Notes under the pieces: generated by a model
Databases searched by the model: none
What the model saw: only the letters and a program-made list of their open reading frames with translations
What the model was told of the DNA's origin: nothing
Source: Halanaerobium saccharolyticum
Lineage (GTDB): Bacteria > Bacillota > Halanaerobiia > Halanaerobiales > Halanaerobiaceae
DNA length: 64,000 bases
Reading direction: 5' to 3'
Assembly (NCBI RefSeq): GCF_003259895.1
Contig: NZ_QLME01000005.1
Coordinates: 1 to 64,000, forward strand
Shown here: positions 1-10,654 of the stretch, piece after piece
Layout: every line of letters begins with the position of its first letter
How positions within the stretch are numbered: the stretch's first letter is position 1
Program-made: the position numbers and the translations under genes

Positions 1-389
1 GTTCTAAAAAATAAAACTGATTTTCTCTGGCGGCAGGCTTCCAGGCCAATTGCCGTTGCAAGATGAGATTTCCCGGTACCAGCGGCCCCATACAGAATTA
101 AATTTTCGTTTTTTTCAATAAAGCTCCCTGTTTTTAGATCTTCAATTGATAGTGCAGAAGGTATTCTGATTTCATCAAACGAATAGCCTTCAAAGGTCTT
201 AATAGTATAAAATTTAGCCTGTTTAATCAGTCTTTCTATCTTTTTGGCTTTACGGTATTCAACTTCATTTTGCAGTATTTTAAGTAGAAATTCATGTCGA
301 TTTTCAGCTTCAATACTTTCAAAATTATCAGCTATGTTCTGACTTAATTTGAGTGTTTTGCAGCAGGCTGCAATCTGCTCTTTAATCAT
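1..389 (-). CDS. istB: IstB-like ATPase of IS21 (3' part outside window)
   Basis: AAA+ helper ATPase that assists the IstA transposase in target choice and strand transfer. The frame opens with MIKEQIAACC and contains the Walker A motif GAAGTGKS about 95 residues in, followed by the window edge. The start ATG overlaps the istA stop (ATGATTAA), typical of translationally coupled istAB. About 130 of the usual 240-250 residues are visible. Confidence 0.9.
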   Translation of the reverse strand, partial: MIKEQIAACCKTLKLSQNIADNFESIEAENRHEFLLKILQNEVEYRKAKKIERLIKQAKFYTIKTFEGYSFDEIRIPSALSIEDLKTGSFIEKNENLILYGAAGTGKSHLATAIGLEACRQRKSVLFFR

Positions 390-1926
390 TGGCTTCAACT
401 CCATCTGCTACAGTATAGAAAGTATCATAAAAACTAATATCAGGTTTTAGTTCAGGTAATTCAGGTGCATTTTTAGCTGCTAAATGTCCATCAAGTTCCA
501 TAATCTTAGAGTTCTTTCTCTTAAATAGGACCTGGATGCTGTCAGTATCTCTTGCTCCATGAGAGATAGCATCTAAGAGAGCATCTACTGCTGCCTCAAA
601 ATTTGTTTCTTCTGTCAGTGTATTTAGAGTTTTGAGTGTTGCTTTTAAGTTCTCGTAATCTAAAGTATCAAAATAATCTTTAGCTGCTTGGGGAAAAAGA
701 TCATAGATTCCAGTATATTTTAAAGCTGTTGGCCTTTTGGATATCTGACCTAAATAAAGAATCCAGTTGATTGATTCCTGTTTTAAGTCACCATAAAGCC
801 TGTCGTGAGTGACAACCTCTTTCAGATCCTGATCTAAGATTATCACTTTCTCAGCTGTAAGTTTAACAAAAACATTGCTTTTAGCAAGACTTGGTTTAGT
901 AAAATATCTGTGTTTACCTTTATGAATAGTAATACAGGCATTAGCATCAGTTTTCTTGGAAACAACCAATGCTGGCTCAAATTCGACCTCAGGCAGCGGT
1001 AATAATGCTTTTAGATCAGCCTGAAATAATTCATGCTGAGTAGCATTTTTTCTGTAATGTTCGCGGTACTGATCATCATCAAGTTCAGTAAGTAATGATT
1101 TATTGAATTCATCTAAATTATCAAATTCTGGTGGTGGAACAAAATAGTTGCGTCTGTGATAGCCTACTTTACCCTCAATATTGCCTTTTTCATGTCCACT
1201 AGCCGGATTACAAAATACTGCTTCAAATCTAAAGTGATTCTTAAACATCATGAAGTGCTCAGTCAGCTTTCGATACTTGTTTTTACCAATATCTGAAATC
1301 ATACTGGAAGCATTGTCAAATACTATTCTCGAGGGAACACCTCCAAGATGATTAAATATGTTTATCATACCCTGCTCTAAACACTGCAAATTTTCACCTT
1401 TAAAAAGCTGTGTATATCCAGTATTACTCTGGGGAAAGCTAAGATTTAGGTGACGTCCTTCATAAAAGGTTCCGTTTTCTCTGAAGTCAGTTCTCCCAAA
1501 ATCAACCTGAGCTTCTCCAGGCAGGTGTTTTAGTGGTAAAAAGAATTTTGGTTCATCAGAAAATATTTCTTTCTTTTTGATCCGCACATATTCAGCTAAC
1601 AGGCGATATGAGCAGTCATATTTACTGCCATAAACTTCTATTAATCTGTTATGTACTCTTTTTGCTGTATGACGCTGTTTTCTCCAGGCTTTTTTATCAG
1701 CCTCAAGCCACTTATCAATAGTTTTTTTAAATGGATCCAGTTTTGATCCCCGCTTTGATTTTTTAGGTGGTTCTAAAACTTCATTAAAATCTGTCATATC
1801 AAGGTATTTATTAACTGTTTTGCGATCATGACCTGTTTTTCTCATTATTTCAGCCACATTTAAACCTTTCTTAAAGTATAGTTTTTTGATATCATTAATA
1901 TCAGTCATTGCTAATGTCATCTCCAT
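382..1926 (-). CDS. istA: IS21 transposase IstA
   Basis: DDE transposase of 514 residues, the usual IS21 length. It has an N-terminal helix-turn-helix (NVAEIMRKTGHDRKTVNKYL) and a retroviral-integrase-type core with the acidic residues in VDFGRTDF, IVFDNAS and the segment EKGNIEGKVGYHRRN. A ribosome site GGGGAGG precedes the start. Two further in-frame Met codons (residues 3 and 7) are possible starts. The frame is intact, so the element may be active if istB is complete beyond the edge. Confidence 0.92.
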   Translation of the reverse strand: MEMTLAMTDINDIKKLYFKKGLNVAEIMRKTGHDRKTVNKYLDMTDFNEVLEPPKKSKRGSKLDPFKKTIDKWLEADKKAWRKQRHTAKRVHNRLIEVYGSKYDCSYRLLAEYVRIKKKEIFSDEPKFFLPLKHLPGEAQVDFGRTDFRENGTFYEGRHLNLSFPQSNTGYTQLFKGENLQCLEQGMINIFNHLGGVPSRIVFDNASSMISDIGKNKYRKLTEHFMMFKNHFRFEAVFCNPASGHEKGNIEGKVGYHRRNYFVPPPEFDNLDEFNKSLLTELDDDQYREHYRKNATQHELFQADLKALLPLPEVEFEPALVVSKKTDANACITIHKGKHRYFTKPSLAKSNVFVKLTAEKVIILDQDLKEVVTHDRLYGDLKQESINWILYLGQISKRPTALKYTGIYDLFPQAAKDYFDTLDYENLKATLKTLNTLTEETNFEAAVDALLDAISHGARDTDSIQVLFKRKNSKIMELDGHLAAKNAPELPELKPDISFYDTFYTVADGVEAND

Positions 1927-3183: not shown

Positions 3184-3519
3184 TCACTTGATAGAATTAA
3201 GTCTGTTAAGCGCAATATCTATTTCTCTCTGTGGAGCTTTATTAGATTTTCTCTTAAAGATATGAAAAAGAACAAAGATACCATCCTGATAATTTAAAAA
3301 GAAAATCCTAAATATATTAGAACTATTCTTTATTCGTAATTCCCAGAGATCATCATATCCCTTTAACTTTTTAAGATGTGGCATACCAAGGAATAGACCA
3401 AATTATTCTAGAAGTTCTATTTCTCTTAGAATCTTAGCTTTTTCTTTAGCTGACTGTTCTTTAATAAATTCAATTACTGGAGATTTGTTATTTTTTGCAT
3501 AATACTTAATTTTATACAT
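3184..3519 (-). pseudogene. higB: HigB/RelE-type toxin with in-frame TAA
   Basis: The frame opens with MYKIKYYAKNNKSPVIEFI after a GGAGTG ribosome site, runs 38 codons, meets one TAA (after IELLE), then continues in the same frame FGLFLGMPHLKKLKGYDDLWELR to the end. The joined 111-codon frame matches the phage-derived Gp49/HigB family of mRNA interferases, including the conserved MPHLKKL and LWELR segments. A GAA-to-TAA change is the simplest explanation. Reinitiation at MPHLKK (3384) would give only the C-terminal half, so the toxin is probably dead. Confidence 0.8.
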
Positions 3520-3691
3520 AATCTATTCACTCCAATTTCTAAATTTATTATATCACATATATGTTATAAAGGGGAGTGAAAATTTAAGATTAAGTTTATA
3601 TAAAAACATTTACTGTATAAATGCAGGGATTTTTTTCTTTTGCATGAAGTAAGTTAATAATTGATAAATTAATAGATAAAGATACGGCATC

Positions 3692-3823
3692 ATATAACAT
3701 GTGATTGGCGTCATGACTTCTGTCACAAAACTTGCAATTTAAATAATTATTAATGCTGAAAAGCAAGTTTTTTGCTAGTTCCTGGAGGAAACAGGTACAT
3801 CGCAAACCCCAGTACCGTTATGC
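3692..3823 (+). other. attC-like site 2
   Basis: R'' ATATAAC (3692) and R' GTTATGC (3817) bound a 132-bp imperfect palindrome, the same length as site 1. The inner arm AAAACTTGC/GCAAGTTTT pairs perfectly. Sequence similarity to site 1 is obvious through much of both arms (TGTCAnAAA, AGTTCCTG). It marks the end of the toxin-antitoxin cassette. The next gene starts 35 bp after R'. Confidence 0.75.
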
Positions 3824-3858
3824 GAAATGCCAAAAAGATTTAAAAGGGAGCTGATATT

Positions 3859-4665
3859 ATGAATGATAAAAATAATTCAAATGAAAATCCTAAACTTTTT
3901 ATATCATACAGTTGGTCTTCACCAGATCATGAAGAATGGGTTTTAAATCTTGCAGAAGAATTAGTTGCTGCAGGTGTAAATGTCATTTTAGATAAATGGG
4001 ATTTGAAAGAAGGAAATGATGCATATGCCTTTATGGAGAAAATGGTGACTGATCCTGATATAAATAAAGTGATTTTAATATGTGATAAAGAATATGCAGA
4101 AAAAGCTGATGATAGAAGTGGAGGGGTTGGAACAGAAACTCAAATTATTTCACAAGAAATTTACGAAGAAGTAGATCAAAATAAATTTGTTGGAATTGTA
4201 AAAGAAAGAGATGAAGATGGTAAGGCTTATTTACCAACTTATTATAAATCAAGAATTTATATTGATTTAAGTGATGAAGAAGAATATGCTAAAAATTTTG
4301 AAAGGTTGGTGAGGTGGATATATGATAAACCACTGCACATTAAGCCTCCAATTGGTGAAAAACCTTATTTATGAGATAGTTTAGATGCAATTAAAAGTGA
4401 TAAAGAATACATTTATAGAAAATGGTATCCACAAACGTTAGTATATAATCGTCATCAACGGAATTCATTTGAATTATTTGCTAGAGCGGAATCTAAACAT
4501 TATTTTAATAGAATAAAAAATATATTTAATATCAATCAAACTAAAGATTTTAAATTATTATTTAAAGCTTTTGAAGAAAAAAAGTTAAAATTACCTAGTT
4601 GGGGTTATAAAACATTGCCATCTATTAGAAAATTAATGAATTATGATAAATTAGCTAGCAGATAA
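3859..4665 (+). pseudogene. SEFIR/TIR-domain protein with in-frame TGA
   Basis: The first 171 codons form a SEFIR/TIR domain: PKLFISYSWSS opening strand, DKWDLKEG after helix 1, and GGVGTETQIIS, whose glutamate fits the position of the catalytic Glu of NAD-cleaving TIRs. A single TGA follows PYL. The same frame then continues for 96 codons (DSLDAIKSDKEYIYRKWYP to KLASR) up to 18 bp before the attC3 site, so the original gene was 268 codons. Bacterial TIR/SEFIR proteins often act in phage defence by depleting NAD. Without readthrough, a free TIR domain of 171 residues is still made. GGGAGCTG precedes the start. Confidence 0.8.
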
Positions 4666-4683
4666 TAAAAAAATTGGCACTTC

Positions 4684-4840
4684 GCATAACAGAGGGTTCC
4701 CGCTACGGCTAAAGATCAGCCTGCCTTCGGACATGCTCTTTGTCACAAAGTTTGCAATGAGTGAGATAAGTGGTTTGGAATGCAAACTTTGTGCCAGGCC
4801 TTACGGCATGAGCACGTCGGGAACCCTCGAGACGTTAGGC
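4684..4840 (+). other. attC-like site 3 (best preserved)
   Basis: R'' GCATAAC (4684) and R' GTTAGGC (4834) match RYYYAAC/GTTRRRY. Next to them GAGGGTTCCCG pairs with CGGGAACCCTC, and the inner CACAAAGTTTGCA pairs perfectly with TGCAAACTTTGTG. It spans 157 bp. This is the strongest single piece of evidence that the array is an integron cassette array. Confidence 0.82.
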
Positions 4841-4916
4841 GAAATTAAATATTCATCTAAAAAGTGATAATTATTGGAAAAAGAGGAATAAAATAATAAA
4901 AGAATATTATTTAGAT

Positions 4917-5533: not shown

Positions 5534-6295
5534 ATGAACGATTGGTTTACAATAGAACAAATTGACGAAGAAACTTATATTATTAGCGAATATCGCCATT
5601 GGGAGGAGACACATTGTTATCTTTTGAATGGGAATAAATACAGTTTGCTGATTGATACCGGGCTTGGAATTTGTAATATTCATGATGAAGTCATCAATCT
5701 GACTGACAATCCTATTATCGCTGTAGCAACACACATTCATTGGGATCATATTGGAGGACATAAATTTTTTCCTGATTTTTACGCTCATCAATATGAATTG
5801 AATTGGCTTAATGGAGAATTCCCTCTGACAATTAAGCAGATTAAGGATATGGTGGTTGATCGTTGTGACCTGCCAAAGGGTTATGACGTAAATGAATACA
5901 AGTTTTTTCAGTGAAATCCAACAAGAATCCTGAAGGATAATGATATAATAGATATAGGTGGTCGCTGTATTAGAGTTCAGCATACACCTGGTCATTCACC
6001 GGGACATATGTGTTTCTGGGAAAAGGATTGTGGTTATCTTTTTACCGGAGATTTAGTTTATAAAGACACGTTATTTGCTTATTATCCATCTACCGATCCA
6101 GAAGCATACCTCAACTCTCTTGAACGGATATTGGCACTACCGGTGAAGCGTGTGTTTCCAGCACATCATTCTCTAGATATTCAACCTGAGATCTTGAAGA
6201 AAATGCGTGACGCTTTTCGGCAGTTGCAAAATGATGGTAAATTGCACCATGGCAGTGGAACATTTGACTATGGTGATTGGGCTGTCTGGTTATAA
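5534..6295 (+). pseudogene. Metallo-beta-lactamase-fold hydrolase with in-frame TGA
   Basis: The 254-codon frame is complete except for a TGA at 5912-5914 (after KFFQ). The zinc-site motifs lie on both sides: THIHWDH near residue 75 before the stop, then HTPGHSPGH, FTGDLVY and PAHHS after it. All ligands would be present if the stop were read as an amino acid, so a single point change (TGG or GGA to TGA) probably inactivated it. It shares a cassette with the upstream methyltransferase-like gene: no convincing attC lies between them. Base composition is more balanced than in its neighbours, suggesting a different source. Confidence 0.8.
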
Positions 6296-6408
6296 TCTGA
6301 AATACTAAATTAAAATACTTGTTCTTGTTGAAACTTCACGAAAAATTTATTTCCTTGGTTGAAAATATTTATGTAATATGATATTACATAAACTTCATCT
6401 AATAGCAA

Positions 6409-10126: not shown

Positions 10127-10654
10127 ATGACAAATTTTACATACAAAGTTATGGCATTTTCAGAAGATAGTAATGGTGGAAATCCTGCGGGAGTCGTTTT
10201 AAATGCAGATTCATTTATTGAGAATCAGATGTTAAGTATCGCAAAAGAAGTGGGCTTTTCAGAGACTGCTTTTGTGATGAATTCAGCCTTAGCGGATTTT
10301 AGAGTTAGGTTTTTTACGCCAGTTGATGAAGTAGATTTGTGTGGACATGCCACGGTCGCAACATTTAATTTGCTAAGAGATCTTGGGATAGTCACAACAG
10401 GTGAATATACTCAAGAAACAAAGGCAGGAATTCTTAAGCTCAAGATTTTTGAAAAACATATTTACATGGAACAGAATATGCCTAAGTTTTATGAGGTGAT
10501 TGATAAGAATGAAATAGAGGGCTGCTTTGAAAGTCAGTTGTTAGGCTATATAAGTGATATGCCAATTCAAATTGCATCAACAGGTTTAAGAGACATAATA
10601 TTGCCTGTAAAGGATTTGGAGACATTATTAGCACTTAATCCTAATAATGTATAG
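10127..10654 (+). pseudogene. PhzF-family protein, C-terminal third missing
   Basis: PhzF-like isomerase fold, N-terminal domain. Visible: GGNPAGVVLN, the conserved glutamate in GFSETAFV, and VDLCGHATVATFN. The family is usually 260-300 residues; here a stop comes at 175, inside the second domain, exactly where sequence for a HAD phosphatase C-terminus begins. A deletion or recombination joined the two. The gene starts 37 bp after site 6, a typical cassette spacing, so it may once have been a cassette. Confidence 0.75.

Follow-up and report, generated by a model that had tools for sequence, protein, structure and literature searches.

Probable recent inactivation of an integron-borne bSEFIR anti-phage gene in a Halanaerobium species by loss of the helical domain

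At positions 3859-4665 of the window, i.e. the whole 64,000-nucleotide stretch of Halanaerobium DNA that was analysed, a reading frame for a SEFIR domain ends at a TGA beyond which the same frame stays open. SEFIR is listed among the NAD-depleting defence domains and systems (PMC12774641). The locus could encode a toxin freed of its control, a gene interrupted by a single stop codon, or the remnant of a larger gene. Most likely, the gene died recently, and no new type of toxin is involved. The reading favoured here, with a probability of about 0.9, is that a cassette-borne bSEFIR gene for phage defence in a Halanaerobium species has lately been inactivated, with nearly all of the helical domain deleted and a TGA following the deletion junction.

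Reading frame, stop codon and tail

The ATG at 3859, preceded by a ribosome-binding site (GGGAG, 3846-3850), opens a 171-codon ORF on the plus strand that is closed by the TGA at 4372-4374, and a further 96 codons follow in the same frame up to a TAA at 4663-4665. This arrangement, already described in an earlier note on this DNA, was confirmed by ORF calls, Pfam and PADLOC. The features of the gene are:

3859..4374, plus strand: 171-codon ORF with the SEFIR domain (about residues 11-155) and a linker, from Pfam, PADLOC and the structural model.
4135..4137, plus strand: codon of Glu93 in GGVGTETQ, candidate catalytic residue, invariant in homologues (E91 in the numbering of the Halanaerobium congolense relative L001).
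4363..4371, plus strand: deletion junction with its breakpoint in a TATTTA stretch, from codon-by-codon comparison with L001.
4372..4374, plus strand: in-frame TGA, the first codon past the junction and part of the distal-side material; L001 has a sense codon there.
4375..4665, plus strand: residual bSEFIR 3' end, 96 codons and TAA, untranslated in frame from the ATG, from PADLOC and tblastn.

The ORF matches the SEFIR family of Pfam (PF08357, E=1e-18) and positions 37-195 of the 412-position PADLOC bSEFIR profile (E=4e-91). The tail (4375-4665) matches positions 328-384 of the same profile (E=1.6e-5) and is 49% identical over 96 aa to the bSEFIR protein of H. congolense (L001; tblastn, E=4e-26); base shuffles of the tail gave an open 96-codon frame in about 5 of 100,000 cases. 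Judged from these sequence matches, the tail is genuine bSEFIR sequence and not a product of chance, and the proposal that it once formed part of the same protein stands. Since the SEFIR part ends at profile position 195 and the tail starts at 328, the gene has lost the middle of its protein and is not just interrupted by a stop codon.

The SEFIR domain itself is complete before the TGA, as had been proposed: the model of the 171-aa product (pLDDT 79) shows the whole SEFIR fold, finished by about residue 155, and its best PDB match is the prokaryotic SEFIR domain 5y8e (TM-score 0.85 by target). The candidate catalytic glutamate, previously assigned to GGVGTETQ, is residue 93 and is invariant across an alignment of 65 intact homologues. 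An AlphaFold run on this alignment gave a mean pLDDT of 87 for the intact relative L001, with the SEFIR domain at residues 10-152, a weak linker and an all-helical C-terminal domain at 181-483. This helical domain of about 300 aa, encoded in the same ORF, is almost entirely missing from the window gene (226 codons gone, plus the TGA); neither a sequence search of the PDB nor a structural comparison gave a confident match for it. In bSEFIR, detection of infection and control of NAD+ cleavage by the SEFIR domain are ascribed presumptively to the C-terminal part, and by analogy the C-terminal helical half would be the sensing half here.

The missing central part

Loci with a relative were collected from genome contigs (n=80) and viral contigs (n=25), 105 in total. 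A single closed ORF of 473-520 aa (median 480) was present in 73 of the 80 genome loci, and in 24 of the 25 viral-contig loci the frame was open for 465-483 codons from the match start. The tail was found in 75 of the 80 genome loci, invariably 655-727 nt downstream of the SEFIR match, compared with a gap of 10 nt in the window. Neither a natural end at residue 171 nor direct joining of SEFIR domain and tail occurred among the 105 loci; the case named earlier as contradicting the proposal, homologues that end naturally at residue 171 with the tail belonging to another gene, was sought in the same loci and not found. In one locus, L046 from a Thiothrix MAG, a frameshift ends the ORF at this position, but the downstream gene sequence is still present; this stop is treated as a coincidence or MAG error.

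The nearest relative is the intact 492-aa protein of H. congolense L001 (G001:C47), whose SEFIR part is 79-81% identical. The window locus is the sole bSEFIR copy in its source genome, where L001 residues 5-175 and 396-493 are matched side by side. In a codon-by-codon comparison, the window tracks L001 up to GEKP and then continues without gaps from L001 residue 394 onward, and L001 residues 168-393, i.e. 226 codons or 678 nt, are absent. TTTTTA is present at both breakpoint regions of L001, and the window junction has TATTTA. As the window is gapless with distal L001 from TTA-TGA-GAT onward, one deletion at this junction is preferred over two. MAFFT placed the LDAIK of the window on the proximal ALDAIK of the homologues, a placement overruled by the codon-level comparison. 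When the two cassettes were aligned globally at the nucleotide level, the gap was misplaced, and this alignment served solely for cassette lengths and the base-shuffle control. The deletion takes nearly the whole helical domain and ends within a predicted helix (383-403 of L001); its length is a multiple of three, for which the chance expectation is one in three.

The TGA had been regarded as the single lesion, and the 678-nt deletion of the central part was overlooked. A comparison of strains for TGA or a sense codon does not decide the matter, because the deletion has removed the central part. That a lone premature TGA interrupts an otherwise whole gene, with sense-codon strains making a 268-codon protein, is therefore hardly credible: past the TGA, 96 open codons with bSEFIR homology do follow, but such a protein would be about 226 codons short of every intact homologue, and L001 and the other intact loci refute it.

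The tail shows no additional decay. Its identity to L001 is 0.52, compared with 0.54 +/- 0.075 in 129 intact pairs of similar SEFIR distance, and the ratio of tail dN to SEFIR dN (3.65) lies inside the 5-95% range of intact pairs (2.1-4.1); only relative dN was used, as NG86 values are saturated for distant pairs. Thus, the tail has not evolved faster than in intact genes, which indicates that the lesion is young relative to the split from the L001 cassette.

Cassette, attC arrays and neighbouring genes

The SEFIR gene is carried as an integron cassette, as the earlier note had recognised, with an attC-like site on either side. The elements of the cassette are:

3686..3837, plus strand: upstream attC-like site, whose terminal R' box GTTATGCG (3817-3824) marks the start of the SEFIR cassette; bottom-strand fold z=-2.3.
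3817..4690, plus strand: SEFIR gene cassette of 874 nt, starting with GTTATGCG (3817) and ending with CGCATAAC (4683-4690).
4680..4846, plus strand: downstream attC of the SEFIR cassette with R'' box CGCATAAC (4683-4690); fold -40.5 kcal/mol, z=-7.2.

Reverse-complementing the R'' box of the cassette, CGCATAAC, gives exactly its first eight bases, GTTATGCG. Both flanking attC sites fold on the bottom strand, the upstream one more weakly (z=-2.3) and the downstream one strongly (z=-7.2), such that none of 200 shuffles of the latter folds as well. The upstream site is about 79% identical to an attC family found at 16 places in its own genome, and the R' box GTTAGGCG (4834-4841) opens the next cassette. 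The preceding HigBA cassette, starting with GTTATATG (2813) and ending with CATATAAC (3691), has the same complementarity between 5' end and R'' box, and the site at 2683-2824 also folds as an attC bottom strand (z=-3.8).

The intact H. congolense cassette (L001 4951-6497) comprises 1547 nt, compared with 874 nt in the window. Since both have the first 12 bases, GTTATGCGAAAT, and the R'' box CGCATAAC in common, the same cassette is intact in H. congolense and broken here. The attC type of the SEFIR cassette differs between L001 4951-6497 and window 3817-4841; the occurrence of different attC types despite the same first bases and R'' box suggests attC exchange between cassettes.

These cassette ends also bear on the possibility of an assembly or sequencing artefact. 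The genome is a draft of 63 contigs and the single searchable record of the species, so that the own-species comparison covers one genome. However, a clean in-register 678-nt deletion at microhomology without a long repeat is atypical of assembly errors, and the cassette boundaries are intact at both ends; an artefact is very improbable.

Single lesions recur in the surrounding genes. The HigB-type toxin of the adjoining cassette (3184-3519, minus strand) has one in-frame TAA at codon 39, and the copy of the HigBA cassette on contig C28 (L105 6985-7610) is intact. A gene with a metallo-beta-lactamase fold (5534-6298, plus strand) has one in-frame TGA (5912-5914), with both halves matching Pfam Lactamase_B, and a PhzF-like gene (10127-10654, plus strand) ends after 175 codons, matching positions 1-174 of a 281-position profile. 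From 20 kb on, the window is mostly filled by long ORFs. As the HigB and metallo-beta-lactamase-fold genes also carry single in-frame stops, the broken SEFIR gene is part of a local decay of an accessory region, in which several damaged genes lie close together. At the contig edge, a transposase-like ORF (382-1926, minus strand) shows a weak Mu-type C-terminal match; it is presumably of the IS21 IstA type. Downstream of it, a methyltransferase cassette (2119-2673) seems to lack its 5' end.

The HigB stop is also relevant for the idea of a compact bSEFIR variant, made up of the SEFIR domain and the C-terminal end only and expressed by stop-codon readthrough. Deletion and tail do stay in one frame, but no second compact SEFIR-plus-tail copy occurs in the 80 genome loci, in the 25 from viral contigs or in 59 genomes belonging to the class, the deletion cuts the predicted helix 383-403 of L001, and HigB is broken by TAA and not by TGA, which gives no sign of UGA reassignment. 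Such a variant has a next to negligible likelihood. UGA recoding is rejected on account of the TAA in the neighbouring HigB and the lack of a UGA at that position of L001.

No integrase gene adjoins the array in the window, and none of the 12 Halanaerobium genomes contains a match over cut-off to the integron integrase TIGR02249. The attC family of the window array is present in 10 of these 12 genomes, a single genome having as many as 41 matches to one attC, and nine contain a conserved Xer-like recombinase of 361-368 aa, which adjoins arrays in e.g. G000:C28, G003:C28, G005:C1, G006:C22, G007:C17 and G008:C38. The C28 enzyme (361 aa, tyrosine type; L105 743-1828, G000:C28:33742-34827) would be the likely recombinase for the window array. 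The recombinase passes NCBIfam NF040815 (226 vs 220 bits), fails TIGR02249 (195 vs 265) and has about 85 extra N-terminal residues. In an alignment with IntI4 (2a3v), just 18 of its residues stand opposite the 56 residues 183-238 of IntI4, a region that should hold the IntI-specific insert, which the recombinase would lack. By sequence, the Halanaerobium arrays may represent an integron platform whose integrase is non-canonical. In the literature search, Halanaerobium and integrons were named together only under unrelated titles. The attC arrays beside a recombinase that seems to lack the IntI-specific insert may outweigh the SEFIR finding in importance.

Fate of the product and comparison with known systems

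The intact gene would have encoded one protein of about 490 aa with an N-terminal SEFIR (TIR-like) effector and an all-helical C-terminal domain. In the published family model, from which its function is deduced, such a protein would respond to phage by cleaving NAD+ and stopping growth. The 678-nt deletion took almost all of the helical domain and probably arose through slippage (or end-joining) at the short T-rich microhomology. With the TGA now right after the junction, the product that could still be made would be the 171-aa SEFIR domain without a sensor. Because TIR-type enzymes usually require assembly driven by a partner domain, this product is by analogy most likely inert or unstable. 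The 226 missing codons and the TGA thus mark the locus as a remnant of the bSEFIR family and not as a working member, and they favour inactivation, one of the two readings offered previously.

The other reading was an ungated NADase. Some features do run counter to a dead gene: the SEFIR half still has a ribosome-binding site and a start codon as well as its fold and the invariant glutamate, the deletion length is divisible by three, and the deletion alone, without the TGA, would leave an in-frame mini-protein. Since Glu93 and the SEFIR fold are both kept, a slight chance is left that the 171-aa product is a live ungated or mildly constitutive SEFIR NADase, freed of its sensor by truncation; beyond these two features, nothing at this locus speaks for it. 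Lone prokaryotic SEFIR domains are stable enough for crystals (5y8e and 5y8f, 154 and 144 residues). However, none of the 105 loci holds a natural SEFIR-only homologue, constitutive activity would burden the host, the promoter signal upstream of the ORF is not above chance, and the neighbouring genes show plain decay. It is correspondingly unlikely that the 171-aa SEFIR domain has been retained as an active or regulatory mini-protein, e.g. as an NADase that acts without a sensor or as a protein that dominantly blocks the assembly of other TIR/SEFIR domains. A recently dead gene is thus the preferred reading, and the locus illustrates an ordinary fate of defence genes in integron arrays, in which one deletion removes the sensor half and the toxic half stays readable.

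bSEFIR (PADLOC PDLC03957) was reportedly named in a 2022 survey of new defence systems; no use of the name was found in the literature searched. The window resembles this system in matching profile positions 37-195 and 328-384 and in having the invariant glutamate, but it lacks positions of about 196-327 (helical domain), and the TGA splits what remains. The crystallised domains 5y8e and 5y8f share 46% identity with the 171-aa product (TM-score 0.85-0.88 by target), but as domain constructs they are silent on the helical domain. Like phage-defence integron cassettes, the window has a single gene between attC sites with matching R' and R'' boxes; unlike them, its gene is broken and its array has no adjoining integrase. 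The closest parallel is the H. congolense L001 cassette, whose SEFIR part is 79-81% identical and which shares the start GTTATGCGAAAT and the R'' box CGCATAAC, but differs in its intact 492-aa ORF, its downstream attC type and its neighbouring cassettes. Intact and broken copies of one bSEFIR cassette in one genus thus provide a ready pair for the question of whether a sensor-free SEFIR domain is harmful.
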